From: Anaerolineae bacterium
Lineage (GTDB): Bacteria > Chloroflexota > Anaerolineae > Anaerolineales > Anaerolineaceae
Reading direction: 5' to 3'
NCBI GenBank assembly: GCA_013314735.1
Contig: JABUFD010000008.1
Location: 64,001 to 128,000 of the forward strand
Length of the DNA: 64,000 bases
Shown here: positions 26,613-52,316 of the stretch, piece by piece
Layout of the letters: each line of letters opens with the position of its first letter
Numbering within the stretch: the first letter of the stretch is position 1
Translations under genes and position numbers: made by a program
Notes under the pieces: generated by a model
What the model was told of the DNA's origin: nothing
Seen by the model: only the letters and a program-made list of their open reading frames with translations
The model's database searches: none

Positions 26613-26879
26613 GTTTCACTCCTTTGGTCTGCAATCCCCCCGTTGCACCAGAAGCAGTACAGCCAATTCAACCCCTGCACACGGACGGTAGTCAATATCC
26701 TTCAATGATATCTCTACCCGCATTATAACAAAAATCAAAAAAAACAACGGCCCCAACCCGGCACCCGTGGCATGCATTTCAACCCCGACATGGCGGTTCA
26801 TAACCACACGGTTCATCACAAAATGGGGTACCGTGCAGAGGGTTAACGCTTTGGTGTTTCTGCCTGCGTTATGCACAGG

Positions 26880-27280
26880 CGCAGCATGTGGATAGTCATT
26901 AATCATTCACTTAATGAATTGTATTTAAAGGTTAAAGTAGTCGTAGTAGGGGCTGTGGAAAAGTGGATAACCAGTCGCGGCGCGCCTTGCGGCCCCCATC
27001 CCTGCCGCCTGTGCCAGGGCACCCCCGCCCATGTGGGGGCAGATGGCCGGGGTTCACTGCGTTTTTATCCACAGCCGCGCCTGTGGACGGATTGTGTACC
27101 AATGTGGACAGGTTATCCACCATTGTCTGTGGATAACTGCCTTTCCGCACAAGTGGTGCTGCTTTCCGGCTACCCCCCAGATATGGGGGTGAGGGCAACA
27201 TTAAAACTCGAAAATAATTTCGAGTTTTCCACAGGGCGGGCGAGTTATCCACAGTTTTTGCACACTTATCCACAAAAAAA
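26880..27280. other. oriC-like DnaA-box cluster
   Basis: Four perfect DnaA 9-mers TTATCCACA (27065-27073, 27245-27253, 27266-27274 on +; 27128-27136 on -) and several one-mismatch boxes (26887-26895, 26962-26970, 27113-27121) lie in 400 non-coding bases. AT-rich stretches adjoin them (26900-26940 and 27196-27230), including the palindrome AAAACTCGAAA / TTTCGAGTTTT (27203-27213, 27218-27228). There is no adjacent dnaA or dnaN. The short open frames across the region are not genes. Confidence 0.7.
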
Positions 27281-27297: not shown

Positions 27298-28383
27298 TCA
27301 GGCGGAAGGGGTACCCCCCATATCTGCCCAGTCGTTTTCCCAATCAGCCACATCTGCGGGGGGCGCTGCCGGCTCCCATTCACTCACCGGCGCCAGCCCG
27401 ACCGCAGAGGAGAGCTCGTCCATCGTCTCGGCGATCCCGTCCAGCCAGGCATCGAGGCCGTCGAAGCGCGCTTCCAGGTCGGCATCGGCCAGGCCGGTGG
27501 TGTGCAGCAGCTGCTCGTAGGCCGCGGCGGATTCCGCCGGCTGCGGGCCGGGCAGGTCGAGCGCGGCCCAGGTGCGCAGCAGGATCCACAGCGCCGCGGC
27601 GGGGGTATCTTCCACCAGGGCGGCGGCGGCCTGGGCGTAGTAGTTTTCTTTGAGGGGGTGCAGTTCCAGCGGGGGCTGCTGCAGGGCGCGGTAGGCGGCG
27701 CGCCACGGATCGATCCACCCGGCGAGGGTTTCCCGCGCGGGGATCTCCTGCGAGAACTGCCCGATCAGCTGGGCGGTCCATTGGGGGGCATCGAGCGCGG
27801 CGGCGCGCTGCGGGAAATCCAGCAGCAGGCGGCGCGTGCCGAGGGGGGTGCTTTCCAGCAGGGCGAGGGCGTTGGCGCCCTCCTCCACCGCGCGCAGGCA
27901 GCGCAGGCGCTGGCGGGCGGCATCCTGTTCCTGGTAGGCGGCCATCTGCTGGCGGCGGGCATTTTGCAGCGCCGCGCGGGCGCGCCACAGCGAGTTCTCG
28001 GGGCTGTCGAACTGCGAGAAGGCCCCAGCCAGGACGAAATCGAACCAGTGGTTCTGCTCAAAGAACACGGTGGGCTTGCGCCACAGGTCGCACCCCAGCC
28101 ACGGCTGGCGGCGCAGGGCGCGCGGATCGCTGTACTCGGATTGGGCGCGGTGCAGCAGGTCAAAGTGGACCTCATCGGAGAGGCGCAGCAGTTCGCGGCG
28201 CGGCGCGCCGTTGGGGTAGGCATGCACGAACACCAGGTCGATATCGCCGGCGCCGCCCAGGCGGTTGTCCTCGTCCAGCAGCGAGCCGGCCAGGTAGACG
28301 CAGACGATGCTGCGGTCCTGGGCGGTGCGTTCGCGCACCAGTTGCCTGGCGTTCTGGGTCATGATCGATGGATTGATCCGCAT
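27298..28383 (-). CDS. Nucleotidyltransferase-fold protein
   Basis: 361 residues. The N-terminal third is a pol-beta/MNT-type nucleotidyltransferase: VCVYLAGSLLDEDNRLGGAGDIDLVFV contains the GS motif and the DxD catalytic pair (DIDLV), then a third acid in DEVHFDLL. The rest is helical (QMAAYQEQDAARQRLRCLRAVEEGANAL, HEPN-like in layout). The ATG at 28383 has CAGGAG 7 bases upstream; the frame is open to 28431. A TGGTATGAT box on this strand near 28430 may be the promoter. Substrate unknown; no partner antitoxin gene is visible. Confidence 0.8.
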   Translation of the reverse strand: MRINPSIMTQNARQLVRERTAQDRSIVCVYLAGSLLDEDNRLGGAGDIDLVFVHAYPNGAPRRELLRLSDEVHFDLLHRAQSEYSDPRALRRQPWLGCDLWRKPTVFFEQNHWFDFVLAGAFSQFDSPENSLWRARAALQNARRQQMAAYQEQDAARQRLRCLRAVEEGANALALLESTPLGTRRLLLDFPQRAAALDAPQWTAQLIGQFSQEIPARETLAGWIDPWRAAYRALQQPPLELHPLKENYYAQAAAALVEDTPAAALWILLRTWAALDLPGPQPAESAAAYEQLLHTTGLADADLEARFDGLDAWLDGIAETMDELSSAVGLAPVSEWEPAAPPADVADWENDWADMGGTPSA

Positions 28384-28484
28384 AGGTGTTCTCCTGCCCC
28401 GGGGGTGTGCAAAATGGAATGGCTCAATCATACCACAAGCCGCGGGCGCGGGTTTACGGGGAGCATTGCTGTATTAAAACGATA

Positions 28485-44278: not shown

Positions 44279-45106
44279 TCAGGAGCCTTCCTGCAGCAGG
44301 TCCTCCTGCGGGCCGGGATCGGGCAATTTTGACGGATGGAACAGGCTGTCGGTGCCGTGTTTGCGGTAGATCACAGCAATATACCCGGCCGAAGCCGCCA
44401 TCACCACTGCCATTACCCCCTCCAGCGCCAGCGGCGACCAGCCCAGGCTGCCCAGGTACACCACCACCCCATTCACCACCCCATGCCATGCAATCGCCAT
44501 CACCAGGTAAGCCGGCTTGCGGTAGCGCACCCCCAGCCACACCATGCACGAAAGCGACAGGTGCAGTGTCACCGCCGCCACCCGCTCGAACGCGCCCAGC
44601 AGCGGCAGGTACCACGGCGTTTCGGCCAGGCCTGCATACGCCGCGGCGGCTTCCGGCGGCAGCATGCCGGTCAGGTTCCCGCCCAGGTACAGGATCAGGG
44701 AAATCGCCGAACCCAATACCGAGAACCCCACCAGGAAACTTTCGATCCCGCCGTGCCCGGCCCCCAGCATCAGGGCGGAGCGGAAGGGTTTGTTCTCCGC
44801 TTTGAGCATCTTGAAGGAAAACCAGCGCGCCACCTCCTCGCACAGCCCGGAAAGCAGCCCGAGGATGACGGCATTGAGTGCCAGCAGTGCCGCCATCGGC
44901 CACGATTGTTCGATCCCGCTGCGCGCGCTGAGAAGATCGACCAGGTACAGCAGCGGCAGGTGCACAATCTGTGATGCCACAAAGGCCAGCGCACCGATGA
45001 AGAACACCTTCCACGAAGCACCGTAGCGCTTCCACAACCACACCCCCACCGCGAACGGCAGCAGCAGTTCGATCAATCCAGCAACGACAAAAGTGGTGGT
45101 CAGCAT
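44279..45106 (-). CDS. YhfC-family intramembrane metalloprotease-like protein
   Basis: 275 residues, about eight transmembrane helices. Family features: LSGLCEEVARWFSFKML (the EExxR motif, about residues 85-102), LGAGHGGIES (the GxGHGGxE motif) and MAIAWHGVVNGVVVY. These put it in the YhfC branch of the CPBP/PrsW-like group. GGAGGA lies 5 bases before the ATG at 45106. A triple DnaA-box array and a parS site lie within 25-100 bases upstream, so its promoter region overlaps potential replication/segregation sites. Confidence 0.82.
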   Translation of the reverse strand: MLTTTFVVAGLIELLLPFAVGVWLWKRYGASWKVFFIGALAFVASQIVHLPLLYLVDLLSARSGIEQSWPMAALLALNAVILGLLSGLCEEVARWFSFKMLKAENKPFRSALMLGAGHGGIESFLVGFSVLGSAISLILYLGGNLTGMLPPEAAAAYAGLAETPWYLPLLGAFERVAAVTLHLSLSCMVWLGVRYRKPAYLVMAIAWHGVVNGVVVYLGSLGWSPLALEGVMAVVMAASAGYIAVIYRKHGTDSLFHPSKLPDPGPQEDLLQEGS

Positions 45107-45129
45107 GTTATCCTCCGGGTTTGCACAGG

Positions 45130-45179
45130 TTATCCACAAATGAAACGGGTTATCCACAAGAATAACACACTTATCCACA
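45130..45179. promoter_or_regulatory. Triple DnaA-box array
   Basis: Three perfect TTATCCACA sites in the same orientation at 45130-45138, 45150-45158 and 45171-45179. The spacing is 20 and 21 bp (about two helical turns), so all sites face the same side. The array lies 13 bases from the parS site at 45192. The same spacing recurs at 50.6 kb. Confidence 0.85.
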
Positions 45180-45191
45180 GGGTTATACCCC

Positions 45192-45207
45192 TGTTTCACG
45201 TGAAACA
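45192..45207. promoter_or_regulatory. parS site (ParB binding)
   Basis: TGTTTCACGTGAAACA, a perfect 16-bp palindrome identical to the consensus chromosomal parS. Confidence 0.93.
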
Positions 45208-45224
45208 TTTACCCGCGAGGACGT

Positions 45225-45600
45225 CGCTTCGATGGTTGGTGAGCCTGTCGAGGGGAGATCGCAACTTACCCGCAAGAATGTCACCTCGACGAGCTCGGTG
45301 ACCGTGGCATTGAAACGCTCCTCATTAACACGCTCCCCGAGCCTGTCGAGGGGAGAACCTCTCATACCCGCAAGAATGTCGCTTCGACAAGCTCAGCGAC
45401 CGTTGCATTCACACGCTGCCTGAGCCTGTCGAAGGCAGATTCTCTCATACCCGCGACGACGTCGCCTCGACAAGCTCAGCGACCGTTGCATTCACACGCT
45501 CCCCGAGCCTGTCGAGGGGAGATTCTCTCATCCTCGCAAGAATGTCGCTTCGATGGTTGGTGAGCCTGTCGAACCACAGGCTCAGCGGCCGCTGTATCGG
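45225..45600. repeat. Tandem 83-bp palindromic repeat cluster
   Basis: CGCTCCCC/CGCTGCCT modules start at 45331, 45414 and 45497, an exact 83-bp period, each containing a GAGCCTGTCGAGGGGAGA half and a GCTTCGACAAGCTCAGCGAC half. The first ~100 bases hold partial units. Confidence 0.9.
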
Positions 45601-45622
45601 AAGGCCATCCTGAAAATCCTGC

Positions 45623-45922
45623 TTACCCACCATCCTCTGCCGCTTGCTCCCGTGGGCGAGAGAGGCGCACCAGTGATTCCACATCCCCTTCGATCAGTGC
45701 TTTTTTCTTGTCGTGTGACCAGCCCTGGATTTGCTTTTCCCGCAGCCAGGCATCGCGGATGCTGTCATAGTATTCCCGGTACGCCAGTACCACCGGGCCA
45801 TGCTTGCGGGTGTAGTTGGCCCCTTCGCCGCTTTCGTGCTGCGCCAGGCGCTGTGCCAGCGACCAGGTGCTGCCGGTGTAGTAAGTGCCATCAGCACATT
45901 TGAGGATATAGACATACGGCAT
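45623..45922 (-). CDS. GIY-YIG endonuclease (UPF0213-like)
   Basis: 99 residues: YVYILKCADGTYYTGSTW (the Y-I-L...Y-T-G signature), LAQRLAQHESGEGANYTRKHGPVVLAYREYYDS with the catalytic Arg and a conserved Glu in LREKQIQGW. This matches small stand-alone GIY-YIG proteins related to YhbQ. No clear ribosome site is seen. It stands alone between two repeat clusters, and its role (DNA repair or mobility) is unknown. Confidence 0.88.
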   Translation of the reverse strand: MPYVYILKCADGTYYTGSTWSLAQRLAQHESGEGANYTRKHGPVVLAYREYYDSIRDAWLREKQIQGWSHDKKKALIEGDVESLVRLSRPREQAAEDGG

Positions 45923-46014
45923 CGTGTCGCTCCCGGGTAGAAGGTGGGGGAATACCTTATCATGGTAGCATAGTTTTGAGATCCGGTGGGTGTCCGGGGT
46001 GGGGACGTTGTATT

Positions 46015-46565
46015 CGCACGCTGCCTGAGCCTGTCGAAGGCAGAATCCTGCATACCCGCGACAATGTCACCTCGACAAGCTCGGTGACCGTAACTGCGAA
46101 ACGCTGCCTGAGCTTGTCGAGGGGAGATTCTCTCATACCCGCGACAATGTCGCTTCGATGGTTGGTGAGCCTGTCGAACCACAAGCTCAGCGACCGTTGC
46201 ACCGAAACGCTGCCTGAGCTTGTCGAAGGCAGATCATAAGTTACCCGCAAGAATGTCCCCTCGACAGGCTCGGTGACCGTGACAGCGAAACGCTCAGCGA
46301 CCGTTGCATTCACACGCTCCCCGAGCTTGTCGAGGGGAGATTCTCTCATACCCGCGACAATGTCGCTTCGACAAGCTCAGCGACCGTTGCACCGAAACGC
46401 TGCCTGAGCTTGTCGAGGGGAGACTGTACGTTACCCGCAAGAATGTCCCCTCGACAGGCTCGGTGACCGTAACTGCGAAACGCTGCCTGAGCCTGTCGAA
46501 GGCAGAATCCTGCATACCCGCGACAATGTCACCTCGACAAGCTCGGTGACCGTTGCGTCGAAACG
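46015..46565. repeat. Tandem 83/106-bp palindromic repeat cluster
   Basis: Unit starts (CGCTGCC or CGCTCCC) at 46019, 46102, 46208, 46315, 46398 and 46481. Periods are 83, 106, 107, 83 and 83 bp; the long units carry an extra GATGGTTGGTGAGCCTGTCG segment. Ends next to the parS at 46577. No gene. Confidence 0.9.
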
Positions 46566-46576
46566 CTGCATTCGTA

Positions 46577-46592
46577 TGTTTCACGTGAAACA
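46577..46592. promoter_or_regulatory. parS site (ParB binding)
   Basis: TGTTTCACGTGAAACA, a second perfect copy 1385 bases from the first, between the repeat cluster and the 3' end of the GGDEF gene. Confidence 0.93.
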
Positions 46593-46608
46593 TGTAAGAA
46601 CAAATGTT

Positions 46609-47343
46609 CTATATAATCGCCACCTGGTTCTTGCCAGCATGCTTCGCCTGGTACAATGCTTCGTCCAACGTCGCCATCAGTTCGTCCGGTCGGCCCACCA
46701 GCGGGTTCCAGGTCGTCACCCCCATGCTGACGGTCACCGGGCAATCACCAGCATGGCTGTTCTCTTGCTTCAACTGGCATAAAATCCTGTGCAGGTCCTC
46801 CGCCAAAGCCTCGGCCTGCACCGCGTTGGTGTTCGGCAGCAGCAGCACAAATTCGTCCCCGCCAATGCGCGCAAATACATCCGTCTTGCGGATGCGCGCA
46901 TGTACCACCTGCGACAGGTGCTGCAAAAACGCATCGCCCGCCGGATGCCCCCGGGTATCATTCAGCTGCTTAAAATTGTCGCAATCAATCATCACCAGCG
47001 AAAAGGCATGCCCATAACGCCGGCAGCGTTCGATCTCTTTTTCCATTTGCAATTGCAGGTAGCGCCGGTTGTAAGCTTCGGTCAGTTCATCCGTCACTGC
47101 CAGCCGCTCCAGGTCCTGCCGGGCTTCATCCAGCTTGAACAGCAGGTTGATCAGCACGTACAGTACCGGTGTGCCGGAAAACAGCGGGATCAGCAGGCCC
47201 ATCTGGCGCGCAACCGGGTTCAACCCACCGTAAAATACACTCATCAGCACTGTTGTGATCAGGTACGAAACCCCCGTTGCGAAAAATGAACCCAGAACCA
47301 GCAGCCACCACTTGCCGATCCGTTTCGCCCATCTGGGAAGCAT
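46609..47343 (-). CDS. Membrane-anchored diguanylate cyclase (GGDEF)
   Basis: 244 residues that would make cyclic di-GMP from two GTP. Two N-terminal helices (WWLLVLGSFFATGVSYLITTVLM and MGLLIPLFSGTPVLYVLINLLF) anchor it. The GGDEF domain (about 85-244) is intact: VTDELTEAYNRRYL, MIDCDNFKQLND, the signature RIGGDEFVLLLP, and an inhibitory site RKTD five residues before it. This implies product feedback inhibition. No separate sensor domain is visible. Confidence 0.93.
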   Translation of the reverse strand: MLPRWAKRIGKWWLLVLGSFFATGVSYLITTVLMSVFYGGLNPVARQMGLLIPLFSGTPVLYVLINLLFKLDEARQDLERLAVTDELTEAYNRRYLQLQMEKEIERCRRYGHAFSLVMIDCDNFKQLNDTRGHPAGDAFLQHLSQVVHARIRKTDVFARIGGDEFVLLLPNTNAVQAEALAEDLHRILCQLKQENSHAGDCPVTVSMGVTTWNPLVGRPDELMATLDEALYQAKHAGKNQVAII

Positions 47344-47441
47344 AAATTATTCCTCTGTTTAACTATTCTTGTTGAGCCGATTATAGCATTTTCCACCGTT
47401 GTTTCACAAATGTTGAGGAAATTCTTAATTGCCTCCGGCAG

Positions 47442-47447
47442 TATAAT
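47442..47447 (+). promoter_or_regulatory. -10 box of a probable leaderless transcript
   Basis: Perfect TATAAT ending 6 bases before the ATG at 47454, with no ribosome site between. This implies a leaderless mRNA for the kinase gene. Confidence 0.6.
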
Positions 47448-47453
47448 CATTCC

Positions 47454-48980
47454 ATGGCATCTGATCTGTTACTCGGCCTTGATTGTTCCACCAGCGCCTG
47501 CAAGGCGGTGATTTTCGATCCCGCCGGCCGGCGCCTGGCGGAAGGCCGTGCGCCGCTTTCGCTCCACAAGCCGCACCCCGGTTGGCATGAGCAGGATCCG
47601 GCGGATTGGTCCGCGGCCGCGTGTGATGCCATCCGCGCGGCCGTGGCGCAGGTCGATCCCGCCCGCCTGGCGGCACTCAGCTTCAGCATCCAGCGTGAAA
47701 CCTTTGTGCCGGTGGATGCCAACGGCGCGCCCCTGCGACCGGCGCTGTTGTGGATGGATACCCGCGCCGCGCCGCAGCTGCCCCCGCTGGCAGCGGACCC
47801 CCGCCTGGCGGATTTCCAGGCACGCACCGGCAAGCGCCTCTCGGTCAATCTCGCCCCACCGCGCCTGTGCTGGCTGGCGCAGCAGGAACCGGCGGTGTTC
47901 GGGCAGGCAGCGGCGTACTGGGATGTGCATGCCGCCCTTGCTTTTTTCTTCGCCGGTCAGGCGGCGGCATCGTGGGGCAGTGCCGGGCCGATGGGGCTGC
48001 TCGACCTGCGCACGATGGATTGGTGCGATCCTGTGCTGCAAACCTGCGGCATCCACCGGGAACAACTGCCGCGCCTGGCCGCGCCGGGGAGTCGGATCGG
48101 TACGGTGAGTCAGGCTGCGGCGGCGCAGTGCGGGCTGCCGGTTGGCCTGCCGGTGGTGGCCGGTATCGGCGATGGCCAGGCGTGCGGCCTGGGCGCGGGG
48201 ATCACCCAACCCGGGCGCGCGTATCTCTCGCTGGGGACCTCGGTCATTTCCGGCACGTTTTCGCCCACGTTTGCCGCCGCGGATGCCTTCCGCACCATGG
48301 TGGGCGGTCTGCCCGGTACCTACCTGCTGGAAACGGTGTTGCTGGGCGGCACCTACACCATCGACTGGCTGCTGAACGATTTCCTGGGCCATCCCGGCCT
48401 GGATTCGCTCGAGGCGCTCAGTGCGGAGGCGGCCCTGTTGCCGCCCGGCGCCGAAGGCCTGGTGCTGCTGCCGTACTGGAACAGCGCGATGAACCCGCAT
48501 TGGGACGCGCATGCCCGTGGCGCGGTGATCGGCTGGCGCGGCAGCCACCGCCCGGCACACCTGCTGCGTGCCATTCTCGAAGGGATTGCCTTTGAGCTGC
48601 GCCTGCAGCTGGAGGCAGTTGAAAATGCCCTGGGCACCGCCATCCGCGAACTGGCCTTGATGGGCGGGGGCAGCCGCAGCCGCTTGTGGTGCCAGGTGAT
48701 CGCTGACGTGTGCAACCGCCCGGCGGTGACCGTGCCGGAACCAGAAGCCGCCGCCCTTGGCGCGGCGATGCTGGCTGCCGCCGGGGTGGGCATTCATGCC
48801 AATGCGGCACAGGCGGCCGAACACATGCGCCCGGCGTTGCAGGAACCTGCCTTCCAGCCGGACGCGGAACATGCCGCCCGGTATGATGATCTCTACCGGC
48901 AGGTATACCGGCCGCTGTATCCCGCCCTGCGCGGGATCATGGGGGCGATGGCGCAGCTGCCATCAGCAGGACCGGATTAA
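47454..48980 (+). CDS. FGGY-family carbohydrate kinase (xylulokinase-like)
   Basis: 508 residues. ATP-dependent sugar kinase with the actin-like fold: N-terminal LLGLDCSTSACKAVIFD (phosphate 1 motif), IQRETFVPVD, WMDTRA; catalytic Asp in GIGDGQACGLGAG (about residue 240); phosphate 2 motif YLSLGTSVISGTF; adenosine motif LALMGGGSRSRLWCQVIADV; and the FGGY-C block VTVPEPEAAALGAAMLAA. It is closest to xylulokinases, but the substrate is not certain. It has no sugar-utilisation neighbours and overlaps the convergent HNH gene by 4 bases. Confidence 0.9.
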   Translation: MASDLLLGLDCSTSACKAVIFDPAGRRLAEGRAPLSLHKPHPGWHEQDPADWSAAACDAIRAAVAQVDPARLAALSFSIQRETFVPVDANGAPLRPALLWMDTRAAPQLPPLAADPRLADFQARTGKRLSVNLAPPRLCWLAQQEPAVFGQAAAYWDVHAALAFFFAGQAAASWGSAGPMGLLDLRTMDWCDPVLQTCGIHREQLPRLAAPGSRIGTVSQAAAAQCGLPVGLPVVAGIGDGQACGLGAGITQPGRAYLSLGTSVISGTFSPTFAAADAFRTMVGGLPGTYLLETVLLGGTYTIDWLLNDFLGHPGLDSLEALSAEAALLPPGAEGLVLLPYWNSAMNPHWDAHARGAVIGWRGSHRPAHLLRAILEGIAFELRLQLEAVENALGTAIRELALMGGGSRSRLWCQVIADVCNRPAVTVPEPEAAALGAAMLAAAGVGIHANAAQAAEHMRPALQEPAFQPDAEHAARYDDLYRQVYRPLYPALRGIMGAMAQLPSAGPD

Positions 48981-49432
48981 TCCTCTTCGTAGTAGAACGG
49001 CGTGTCCGCCTCACCACGGGCGGCCAGGTAGGTTCGCACACGTTCCCGCGGATCGGAGGCAAACAGCGCGGGCTGCGGCTGGTCGGGGTCATCGCTGCCT
49101 TTGGACCAGTTGCAGCGTCCGCAGGCCGGCACCACGTTCCCGATCGTCGTCCCGCCCCCGGCATCAATCGGGATGAAGTGTTCGAGGTGTTCAAACGGCC
49201 GCGCCTGGCAGTAGGCGCACAACCCGTTGAAATCCGCCACGGTTTGCAGCCAGGCTTCCAGCGTCAGGTCGGCGGGCAGGCCGGCGGCAGCGGCGCGGGC
49301 GTTCTGTGCCTGCACGCGCTGGCGTTCGCGCCCCCATTCGGTTTCACGGCAGGCTTCACAATACAGCAAGGCCTGCGGATCGCGGATGGGTTGGCCGCAG
49401 CGGATGCAGCGGCGGGTATGCAGGTGATCCAC
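48977..49432 (-). CDS. HNH endonuclease with N-terminal zinc ribbon
   Basis: 151 residues from a GTG (49432) with TGGAG 6 bases upstream. An N-terminal ribbon CIRCGQPI ... YCEAC is followed by an HNH site: LCAYCQARPFEHLEHFIPIDAGGG ... NVVPACGRCNWSKG, with two zinc-binding Cys pairs around the catalytic His and Asn. It follows the D-threonine aldolase-like gene by 4 bases and is probably co-transcribed with it. It may be a nicking or repair nuclease; no phage context is visible. Confidence 0.85.
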   Translation of the reverse strand: MDHLHTRRCIRCGQPIRDPQALLYCEACRETEWGRERQRVQAQNARAAAAGLPADLTLEAWLQTVADFNGLCAYCQARPFEHLEHFIPIDAGGGTTIGNVVPACGRCNWSKGSDDPDQPQPALFASDPRERVRTYLAARGEADTPFYYEED

Positions 49433-49436
49433 CGCG

Positions 49437-50561
49437 CTACTCCAGCAGCAGGGTGGCAATGCGGCGGCCATCGAGCGTGACCAGTTCGCGCATCGCCTGC
49501 AGTGCCAGGCAGGAATGGGCCGGGAGGATGCCCAGCAGATCGCCGGGGTGCAGCTGTGCCAGGCTCACGGGCGGCAGTACCGCCACGCCGTGTTCCTGCG
49601 AGAGCGAACGCACCCAGCCGCCGGGGAGCGGTTCCCCCCAGCCGTGTTCGCCCAGCAGCACCGGCAGGCCGTAGCTGACCGGATGATCCCCCGCGGGGTG
49701 AAAATCCTTCGAAAGATGGATCGCCCCGCCGTACAGCACTGCTTCGCCGCGCTGCGGATGCAGTGCCGCCACCGGGCAGGCCATCGCCACGGCCACTTCC
49801 GCCGCGGTGCAGGCGCCGATCGCCAGCTGGGTGCTGTCGTAAAATACGAAGTTGCCGGGGCGCATCTCTGTCACCCCGCCCAGGTCATCCAGCAGGGCGC
49901 AGGAAGGGGTGTCGCCGATCGAAAGCGCCAGGGCGCCGAAGCCGTGCGCCGCCAGGGTTTGCTGGGCCTGCCGCAGGTGCGCCAGGCTGGCGTGATACAG
50001 CGCGGATACTTCCTCCGCCCCGCGGGCATGGTAGGTGTCGCCGAAGTGCGAGAGCAGCCCGTGCAGGCGCAGGTGCCGGGCACTGCCCACCACTGCCGCG
50101 GTGTGCTCCAGCAGGCGCGCATCGTCCCAGCCGATGCCGGTGCGGTGGTAGCCGCAGTCGATCTTGAGCCACACGGCGGTCGGGGCATCGAGGGCGGTAT
50201 CCAGCGCCGCGGCGCTTTCCACACTCTCCAGCAGCAGGTGCAGGCGGGGCACGCGCCGCGCCAGTTCCGCCACCGCCGGCAGTTCGCGCAGGTTGAGCGG
50301 AAAGGCGATGGTGATATCCTCCCAGCCGTGGGCGGCGAAATACTGCGCCATCATCACCGAAGACACCGTGCAGGCGCGCACCCCTTCATCGCGGAACCAG
50401 CCGCCGATCTCGGCGCTCTGGTGGGTTTTGAAGTGCGGGCGGAAATGCACCCCTAGGCGGCGTGCTTTGGCCGCCATGCGCGCGATGTTTTCACGGCAGC
50501 GGCCTTCATCAAGCAGCAGGGTGGGGCGGGTAATTTCGGGAAACAGGGTCATTGTAGGCAT
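49437..50561 (-). CDS. PLP-dependent D-threonine aldolase/D-serine dehydratase-like (fold type III)
   Basis: 374 residues. Alanine-racemase-like barrel: TLLLDEGRCRENIARMAAKARRLGVHFRPHFKTHQS, in which Lys binds PLP; GWEDITIAFPL; WLKIDCGYHRTGI; and LHGLLSHFGDTYHAR. The C-terminal metal site of the DSD1 family is present as ILPAHSCLALQ (His and Cys). It would cleave or dehydrate a D-3-hydroxy amino acid with a metal ion. The start is uncertain (50567, 50561 or 50552); 50561 is used. A triple DnaA-box array lies 38-87 bases upstream. Confidence 0.87.
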   Translation of the reverse strand: MPTMTLFPEITRPTLLLDEGRCRENIARMAAKARRLGVHFRPHFKTHQSAEIGGWFRDEGVRACTVSSVMMAQYFAAHGWEDITIAFPLNLRELPAVAELARRVPRLHLLLESVESAAALDTALDAPTAVWLKIDCGYHRTGIGWDDARLLEHTAAVVGSARHLRLHGLLSHFGDTYHARGAEEVSALYHASLAHLRQAQQTLAAHGFGALALSIGDTPSCALLDDLGGVTEMRPGNFVFYDSTQLAIGACTAAEVAVAMACPVAALHPQRGEAVLYGGAIHLSKDFHPAGDHPVSYGLPVLLGEHGWGEPLPGGWVRSLSQEHGVAVLPPVSLAQLHPGDLLGILPAHSCLALQAMRELVTLDGRRIATLLLE

Positions 50562-50598
50562 CTGCACATTAAGAATAATTTTCTATATTTTTATCATG

Positions 50599-50648
50599 TT
50601 ATCCACAATGCGTGGTATTTATCCACAGTTTTGGGGTAGTTATCCACA
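50599..50648. promoter_or_regulatory. Triple DnaA-box array
   Basis: Three perfect TTATCCACA sites in the same orientation at 50599-50607, 50619-50627 and 50640-50648. Spacing is 20 and 21 bp, exactly as in the array at 45.13 kb. It lies upstream of the D-threonine aldolase-like gene and after the pentapeptide gene. Confidence 0.85.
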
Positions 50649-50692: not shown

Positions 50693-51115
50693 TTAACGCA
50701 AATGGCCCTCCGGCAGTCGCGCGCCGTCCAGGCGGCAGCCGGTCAGGTCGGCGCCGATGAGGGTCGCATCGCCCAGGTCGGCGCGCAGCAGGCTGGCATT
50801 GCGCAGCACCGCGCCGGAAAGGTCCGCGCCGCGCAGGTCGCAGTCATTCAGGTAGGCGCCGCTGAAATCGGCGCCGCTGAGATCGGCCCCGGCCAGGCAG
50901 GCCCGGCTGAGGTCTGCCCCGGCAAAGCGCGTGTTGGCGCAGTGCGCGCGGCGCAGGTCGGTGTGGCGCAGGCTGGCGCCGGATAGGTCCGCCGCTTCGA
51001 GGCGTACGCCTTTTAAATGAAAGAACGAGAAGTTCGCGCCGCGCAGCGCCTTGCCCGACAGCCGCGCGAAGCGCAGCAGGCCACTCAACCCCAGGATCGA
51101 ACGCAGGAGGGTCAT
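50693..51115 (-). CDS. Pentapeptide-repeat protein
   Basis: 140 residues starting MTLLRSILGLSGLLRFARLS. About 20 pentapeptides of the A(D/N)LxX type (GADLSGADFSGAYLNDCDLRG, LLRADLGDATLIGADLTG) would form a right-handed beta-helix. No signal peptide or anchor. It follows the glycosyltransferase gene by 13 bases and is probably co-transcribed. A gyrase-protective role as in MfpA/Qnr is possible but not indicated. Confidence 0.85.
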   Translation of the reverse strand: MTLLRSILGLSGLLRFARLSGKALRGANFSFFHLKGVRLEAADLSGASLRHTDLRRAHCANTRFAGADLSRACLAGADLSGADFSGAYLNDCDLRGADLSGAVLRNASLLRADLGDATLIGADLTGCRLDGARLPEGHLR

Positions 51116-51128
51116 GGGGCTTTCCCTC

Positions 51129-52316
51129 TCATCCCAGTGCGTTCTCGTACACAGTACGCAGGGCGCTGGCATACCGTGCGGGGTCATGCTGCCGGCGCAG
51201 GTGTTCCAATGCGGCCGCCCCCTTGCGGCGCACAAGCTGCGGGTTGGCGGCAATCTCATGCAGCACGCGTTCCAATCCTCCCGTCAGCGCATGGCTGATG
51301 CGCTCCCGCCCTTCCGCCGTGGTGTAGAGGGCTTCTCCCAACGGGTTTTTCGGCACTTCGATCAGCCAGCCGGCATCCGGGGGATTCATCTCCGGCAGGG
51401 CGCGCACATCCGAGGTGATCACCGGGCAGCCACAGCTCTGAAACTCCAGCACGGAATAGCCGTAGGTGTCGGCATAGGAAGGCAGCAATCCCACATCGGC
51501 GCTTTTCATCAATGCCAGCACCCCGGCATTGGGCAGGCTGCGGTGGTGGGTGATCCAATCCTGGTTGGCGTCGATTTTTTCCAGTGCCCAGGCGACATCG
51601 GCCGGGGTTTCTTTGGCGGCGTAATCCTCAATCCGCATCGAGGTCACCAGGATCAGTTCCAGCGGGTAATGGTACTGGCGCACCATTTTTTCAAAGCTGA
51701 GCAGGATCTCGCGCCCGCCCTTGCGGAAAAATGCCGCCCCCACCAGCATGAAGCGCAGGCGCTCCCCGGGGGCAGGCTTGTCTTCGATGGTGTCGATCTG
51801 CGGCGCCTGGGGCGGGTGCAGTACCATCATTTTCGGCGCCACCGCGGCCTCGAATTCGGCATGCTCATGCAGCAGGTCACGCTGCAGGGCGGCACTGCAT
51901 TGCGAAAGCGCGATCAATTGCCGGCAGGCGGGCCCGGCCAGGGCGCGCAGGGCACGGCGCGCGTGCGCGCTGAGCGGTTTGTGTTCCGTTTGGCCGCCCT
52001 GGTGTCGGGTGACCAGTTCCCGCAGGCGCGGCAGGCTGCTTTCAAAATGGCTGACCCAGGGGGTGCTGCCGTAGCTGATGCCGTTGAAAAAGTGCAGGAG
52101 GTCCACCGGGCTGCGATTCCCATCCATGAACTGGTTGTTGAGGTCAAAGGTGTTGATCAGTTTGCGCCCCATTACGCGGTTGAGCTTGTTGGCGGCGCGG
52201 TTGAGGGTGCTGTACACATCCCACACCGGCACATAGTCCACCTCTGGCACCTGGTGGAGGATGGTGCGGAGATAGGGGTAATAATCAAAACGGTAATTGA
52301 GCACGCCAACCTTCAT
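51129..52316 (-). CDS. Glycosyltransferase family 4-like protein
   Basis: 395 residues of GT-B type. The N-terminal domain begins MKVGVLNYRFDYYPY and contains DLLHFFNGISYGST; the C-terminal half has FMLVGAAFFRKGGREILLSFEKM and the nucleotide-sugar motif SADVGLLPSYADTYGYSVLEFQSCGCPVITSD (E-x7-E pattern). It would transfer a sugar to an envelope or lipid acceptor; the donor is unknown. AAGGAG lies 7 bases before the ATG at 52316. Confidence 0.87.
   Translation of the reverse strand: MKVGVLNYRFDYYPYLRTILHQVPEVDYVPVWDVYSTLNRAANKLNRVMGRKLINTFDLNNQFMDGNRSPVDLLHFFNGISYGSTPWVSHFESSLPRLRELVTRHQGGQTEHKPLSAHARRALRALAGPACRQLIALSQCSAALQRDLLHEHAEFEAAVAPKMMVLHPPQAPQIDTIEDKPAPGERLRFMLVGAAFFRKGGREILLSFEKMVRQYHYPLELILVTSMRIEDYAAKETPADVAWALEKIDANQDWITHHRSLPNAGVLALMKSADVGLLPSYADTYGYSVLEFQSCGCPVITSDVRALPEMNPPDAGWLIEVPKNPLGEALYTTAEGRERISHALTGGLERVLHEIAANPQLVRRKGAAALEHLRRQHDPARYASALRTVYENALG

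Follow-up and report, generated by a model that had tools for sequence, protein, structure and literature searches.

Two triple arrays of DnaA boxes in this Anaerolineae genome are probably isolated copies of the distal DnaA-box triple of the genome's own oriC, without its unwinding element, and we favor a role as origin-proximal DnaA sinks similar to the DBCs of B. subtilis. The window analyzed comprises 64,000 nucleotides (bases 64001-128000 of the 131,425-bp contig C8) of a genome of 4,085,580 bases in 13 contigs. Array 1 (45130..45179) and array 2 (50599..50648) each consist of three perfect DnaA boxes TTATCCACA on the + strand, starting at 45130/45150/45171 and 50599/50619/50640, with a spacing of 20/21 bp. 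Exact matches at all six starts confirm the two co-oriented triples described by the first-pass annotation. The pair of arrays is real, but the inventory was incomplete, as a third array of the same spacing at 27225 and two perfect parS sites had been overlooked. The helical phasing proposed for the boxes holds as well: the spacing corresponds to two helical turns, lies far above chance and is conserved. No other boxes were found within 700 bp of either array.

Chance was excluded as the origin of the arrays by the box count, the clustering of pairs and the expected number of triples. The window contains 10 exact DnaA boxes, compared to 0.25 expected from shuffles. Genome-wide, 35 exact boxes were counted on both strands, while the reversed 9-mer control occurs 18 times; single boxes are thus enriched about twofold, no more. 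Five times in the whole genome, two exact boxes follow each other in the same orientation with 8-16 bp between them, always inside the window (control: 0), and 6e-10 exact 20/21 triples are expected by chance given 35 boxes. Enrichment of the spaced pattern over chance, on which the earlier claim was to be judged, is borne out in 61 genomes: 72 of 87 exact direct pairs with gaps of 4-34 bp have a spacing of 20 or 21 (spacing 20 in 13, 21 in 59, 22 in 8, others in 7). Without the five pairs of the own genome the fraction is 67 of 82.

The third array belongs to a cluster at 26869-27274 that is probably organized as a bacterial origin carrying a DnaA-trio/BUS element. Ten boxes with ≤1 mismatch are found here in both orientations, including those at 26869 and 26887. 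The probable oriC itself (26930..27274, + strand) was assigned by its box layout, the neighboring gene and the GC skew of Pelolinea. It combines a DnaA-trio/BUS-like element, scattered boxes and a distal triple, so that an unwinding element lies beside DnaA boxes, as expected for a replication origin. The BUS-like element (26938..26970, + strand) consists of the trios TAGTCGTAGTAG, a GC stretch and two reversed boxes with one mismatch each, reading TAGTCGTAGTAGGGG before the two reversed boxes. These are the parts named in an excerpt of PMC8287927, where BUS is defined by DnaA boxes and DnaA-trios. In the window the element is part of oriC and is missing from arrays 1 and 2, where the pattern scan gave no match and this mark of a replication origin is therefore lacking. 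The distal triple TTTTCCACA/TTATCCACA/TTATCCACA (27225..27274, + strand) starts at 27225/27245/27266 and hence shares the spacing of 20/21; its first box (TTTTCCACA, 27225) carries one mismatch. Next to oriC lies a gene without Pfam match (27298..28431, - strand), whose relatives adjoin the triple in 25 of 38 array loci. This gene appears to be a steady oriC neighbor across the family. The dnaA gene (C9:498244) and the ParB gene (G000:C9:913629) are located on a different contig from the arrays. Autoregulation of dnaA by DnaA boxes was rejected for the own genome, where no box with ≤1 mismatch was found between positions -600 and +100 relative to the earliest start of dnaA.

Judging from comparison with related genomes, the 20/21 triple is a conserved oriC module. 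Conservation in relatives, which had been put forward as a check, was found in 41 of 61 genomes (own included; ≤2 mismatches), and both arrays recur in the congener G001. The triple was not found at this threshold in 20 of the 61 genomes, and the reversed-pattern control gave 0 in all. It is present once in 38 genomes, twice in G005 and G058 and three times in the own genome. A scan of the family at ≤3 mismatches detected it in 80 of 147 genomes, eight of which have two or more, and not in the other 67; genus g17 had the triple in none of 14 genomes at this threshold. An exact scan of 84,980 species genomes yielded 107 triple-matching stretches, which by their titles we take to comprise 96 from Chloroflexota, 9 from other groups (two of them from one Cytophagales MAG) and 2 without a group. 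In relatives the triple is accompanied by boxes near -150 and a pair near -260/-270, the same as in the window. A BUS-like element near -250 to -330 was detected in 18 of 47 arrays scanned, including the oriC of the window and of the congener, and 23 arrays had none; the regular expression behind these counts was composed after viewing the element of the window. Of its 24 hits, 6 were dismissed as spurious on visual inspection, being misplaced or devoid of TAG/TCG trios, and plausible elements recognized by eye in Pelolinea and G005 escaped it. Further support is provided by the complete chromosome of Pelolinea submarina. Based on 32 sampled stretches of 20 kb each, its GC skew changes sign between 334.0 and 352.0 kb, being negative before and positive after, apart from a single deviating sample in the positive arm (880 kb). 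The triple lies at 326,645, 7-25 kb from the switch, and parS at 284,023. The surroundings of the own arrays 1 and 2 showed no synteny with Pelolinea apart from the oriC gene. In G165, four 20/21 triples were observed within 2.2 kb (L263 12488-14715), one of them with a BUS-like element.

Both arrays are linked to the origin and show conservation within the genus, as they recur in matching gene surroundings in the congener. The comparison draws on one genome, G001, which is 69% complete, and on one contig of 5,084 bp. This contig carries a degenerate array and an imperfect 16-bp parS upstream of a YhfC gene. The counterpart of array 1 reads TTTTCCACA/TTATCCACC/TTATCCACA with a spacing of 20/22 and is located beside parS, whereas the counterpart of array 2 (L069 2840-2889) lies between a pentapeptide-repeat gene and an HNH gene. 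The oriC of G001 carries a three-mismatch triple and a BUS-like element. Between array 2 and its counterpart, 26 of 27 box bases are identical but only 8 of 23 spacer bases (Fisher p = 5e-6), and the flanks match in 15 of 40 and 14 of 40 bases. The conservation of the boxes relative to the spacers indicates that the boxes are under selection.

All three arrays of G001 lie within 4 kb, an arrangement that would also suit a spread-out multipartite origin or secondary start sites, and bipartite origins are known (excerpt of PMC5295017). On the own 131-kb contig, the cumulative GC skew could be read in the same way, being lowest at 47.9 kb of the window, between arrays 1 and 2, and not at 27 kb; this contig is too short to decide, and its skew was discarded as an uninformative origin locator. 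A multipartite origin nevertheless appears very unlikely, because both species have the BUS-like element at the 27-kb cluster while arrays 1 and 2 lack it, and because the AT-rich stretch at array 2 and the trios lie on opposite sides. For want of a BUS-like element, a second origin at the arrays was dismissed as unlikely.

Lying near oriC and having no unwinding element, arrays 1 and 2 would most likely act as DnaA sinks. Like DBCs, arrays 1 and 2 are groups of several boxes in a short noncoding stretch outside oriC, and they lie at a DBC-like distance (17.9 kb for array 1, 23.4 kb for array 2) from the distal triple of the probable oriC, within one contig. Among the interpretations offered by the first-pass annotation, the DBC-like one fits best, given box clusters close to the origin; the copying of oriC and the link to parS had not been reached. 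From the sequence we infer DnaA binding at the arrays, its cooperativity and its effect. Boxes two helical turns apart would seat three DnaA molecules on one DNA face. The arrays would then vie with oriC for DnaA and, being duplicated soon after initiation, would damp re-initiation; array 1, 12 bp from parS, could additionally bring DnaA to the centromere. In E. coli, measurements exist of DnaA titration by oriC-proximal boxes (excerpt of PMC12371093). In B. subtilis, deletion of six DBCs advances initiation, with a strong effect only if all six are gone (passages of PMC5295017). E. coli DnaA in vivo (ChIP) prefers boxes 2-3 bp apart, not 11-12 bp (excerpt of PMC11317965), which counts against simple cooperativity at the arrays.

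The likeness to the B. subtilis DBCs concerns groups of boxes near but outside oriC that have no unwinding element and are proposed to lower free DnaA (same passages of PMC5295017). The putative sinks described here differ in being stereotyped 20/21 triples that copy oriC's own module, in that one copy abuts parS, and in belonging to another phylum. With datA and DARS of E. coli they share the organization as noncoding DnaA-box groups outside oriC, which there control initiation. However, datA requires IHF and promotes DnaA-ATP hydrolysis (PMC5295017, in part), and the arrays here are 18-23 kb from oriC. Only in very few bacteria is replication control understood in detail, and no publication on an Anaerolineae or Chloroflexi origin was found in the literature searched. 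The phased triple offers a sequence handle on the origins of the phylum Chloroflexota, and the 0 to 3 triple copies beside oriC could serve as natural variants for DnaA titration.

Relatives also harbor isolated clusters outside the oriC-type array. We considered 17 of these (16 plus the extra arrays of G165). L310-L314 and L316-L318, from genomes without a known triple, were left out, and a second match in G020 (3 mismatches) was not taken up. L266 (G145) was dropped as an extra array because its genes map to the Pelolinea oriC. Most of the 17 clusters consist of several boxes in a row at 20-23 bp, such as the four of G010 and the six of G022. Five of the 17 are located 2-29 kb from a triple on the same contig (G011, G013, G039, G079, G165). 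For six others, neighboring genes in one-way tblastx indicate synteny with an origin region, either that of Pelolinea or that of the own genome: G005, G022-C38 and G028 at about 49-54 kb from the Pelolinea oriC, G167 at about 24 kb, G055 at about 14 kb, and G010, which matches the origin region of the own genome, at about 10 kb. The remaining six (G036, G022-C57 with weak hits, G014, G049, G060 and G058) had no placement. At least 11 of the 17 clusters are thus within about 55 kb of oriC, a lower bound, albeit from one-way mapping, and the Pelolinea stretch used makes up 2.8% of the chromosome, giving a chance expectation of about 0.5 in 17. The positions of the clusters vary between genera. 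Together with two clusters between convergent ORFs, these variable positions favor a sink and disfavor promoter control as the common task.

Promoter control of the adjacent genes was considered for the arrays themselves. Array 1 lies next to a gene for a YhfC-family (PF10086) intramembrane protease (44279..45106, - strand), whose likely ATG at 45106 is 23 bp from the array. The longest YhfC frame given by the ORF tool starts at 45208, inside parS, and array 1 falls within that frame, before the likely ATG. Downstream of array 2 an Ala_racemase_N/D-ser_dehydrat gene (PF01168/PF14031; 49437..50567, - strand) was found, and on the opposite side of the array a pentapeptide-repeat gene (50693..51259, - strand); judging by gene order, a pentapeptide-repeat gene, whose protein in L069 was identified by eye, also adjoins array 2 in G001. 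The two neighbors given by the first-pass annotation were confirmed, the "aldolase-like" gene at array 2 being the one with Ala_racemase_N and D-ser_dehydrat domains. As DnaA-regulated promoters, the arrays would be operators for YhfC and for the Ala_racemase-like/HNH gene set. The position of array 1 would suit this, and the candidate starts of the gene next to array 2 lie 31-46 bp beyond the end of the array; the counterpart of array 2 in G001 stops 45 bp before the HNH start, and in both species AT-rich DNA separates array 2 from the gene. However, the own genome and G001 differ in the gene that lies downstream of array 2. Promoter-like hexamers were absent near array 1, and array 2 has one weak match on the + strand that is directed away from the gene, although the consensus may not suit this phylum. 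Two of the 17 isolated clusters of relatives (L303 and L306) are flanked by convergent ORFs, as called mechanically, and YhfC genes occur near parS without an array in 9 of 44 parS loci outside the genus. With both arrays 23-46 bp before likely starts promoter control is conceivable, but we consider it rather unlikely.

The second neighbor of array 1 is the 16-bp sequence TGTTTCACGTGAAACA, which we take to be parS by its consensus. The first site (45192..45207) follows 12 bp beyond array 1 and the second, of the same sequence TGTTTCACGTGAAACA, is located at 46577..46592. These two perfect parS sites are the only ones in the genome, and no third exact 14-bp core was found genome-wide. Diverged repeats with a period of 83 bp fill much of the space between both sites (45210-46590), around a GIY-YIG gene. 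In Caulobacter, DnaA boxes adjoin parS and DnaA acts on the centromere (excerpt of PMC6399470). The same adjacency is seen at array 1, 12 bp from parS, and not at array 2, which has no parS within 4 kb. DnaA bound to array 1 might therefore act on the ParB-parS complex next to it and couple origin segregation to DnaA activity. This would concern array 1 alone and would be compatible with a sink role. Apart from the Caulobacter precedent (PMC6399470, in part), the idea draws on the 12-bp distance to the first of only two perfect parS sites, on the presence of a ParB gene and on the boxes flanking parS in G001 as well, three before and one after. The survey of relatives points the other way. The exact 14-bp parS core is present in 47 of 61 genomes, yet an exact DnaA box within 300 bp was found at none of 44 parS loci outside the genus (one-mismatch boxes at 5), and none had a triple nearby, the closest being a single three-mismatch triple 2.1 kb from parS in G028. 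DnaA boxes were therefore ruled out as a general parS feature of the family. The union of array and parS is thus, as far as seen, a feature of the genus. We regard a DnaA-gated centromere as doubtful. Next to the Caulobacter arrangement of DnaA boxes beside a centromere (PMC6399470, in part), the arrangement here is a phased triple, observed only in this genus among the 46 parS loci analyzed. Array 1 may be a second example of a DnaA-bound centromere outside Proteobacteria. Besides the 9 of 44 parS loci outside the genus, one locus with an imperfect parS also has a YhfC gene close by, and the proximity of YhfC and parS (44279-45208 in the window) may reflect an old linkage.

NrdR is a dNTP-sensing repressor of ribonucleotide reductase. 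In the window, an NrdR-box-like palindrome CCCCCAGATATGGGGG (27174..27189) is located 35 bp before the oriC triple and is the only copy in the genome at ≤1 mismatch. At ≤3 mismatches, 34 of 146 arrays have the palindrome CCCCCATATATGGGGG in the 150 bp preceding the triple, versus 1 of 730 control windows; it mostly starts 61-63, 51-52 or 40-41 bp before the triple. At ≤1 mismatch it has 68 sites in 38 of 61 genomes, 13 by a triple and 55 elsewhere. Twenty of these 55 sites were fetched, mostly exact ones and hence not a random sample; 13 lie before nrdR, 5 before dnaA and 2 before neither. The genes next to nrdR were ribonucleotide reductases in 5 of 5 cases scanned, and in relatives the palindrome also precedes nrdR-nrdJ. 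A copy with four mismatches is present about 350-370 bp upstream of the own dnaA. Of 17 promoter sites, 6 have a partner box at a start-to-start distance of 30-33 bp, as do a few oriC sites (≤6 mismatches, counted without a chance control). NrdR recognizes paired boxes separated by 14-17 or 24-27 bp (excerpt of PMC12051234), and its gene is frequently found in clusters with dnaA and further genes of replication (passages of PMC4898720). No report of an NrdR box in a replication origin was found in the excerpts of the literature searched (PMC4898720, PMC9110341, PMC12051234, PMC12075136). Tentatively, and at less than even chances, the origin may be under three inputs: a putative NrdR box phased with the oriC triple would gate initiation by dNTP supply, at the origin and at dnaA, while the triple copies would act as sinks, one of them tying DnaA to parS. 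An NrdR-type box in oriC would open the link between dNTP supply and initiation to direct testing. In G013, a cluster 24 kb from oriC (L299 4030-4656) was observed to contain twelve DnaA boxes and a one-mismatch NrdR-type palindrome, and is oriC-like without a BUS match.
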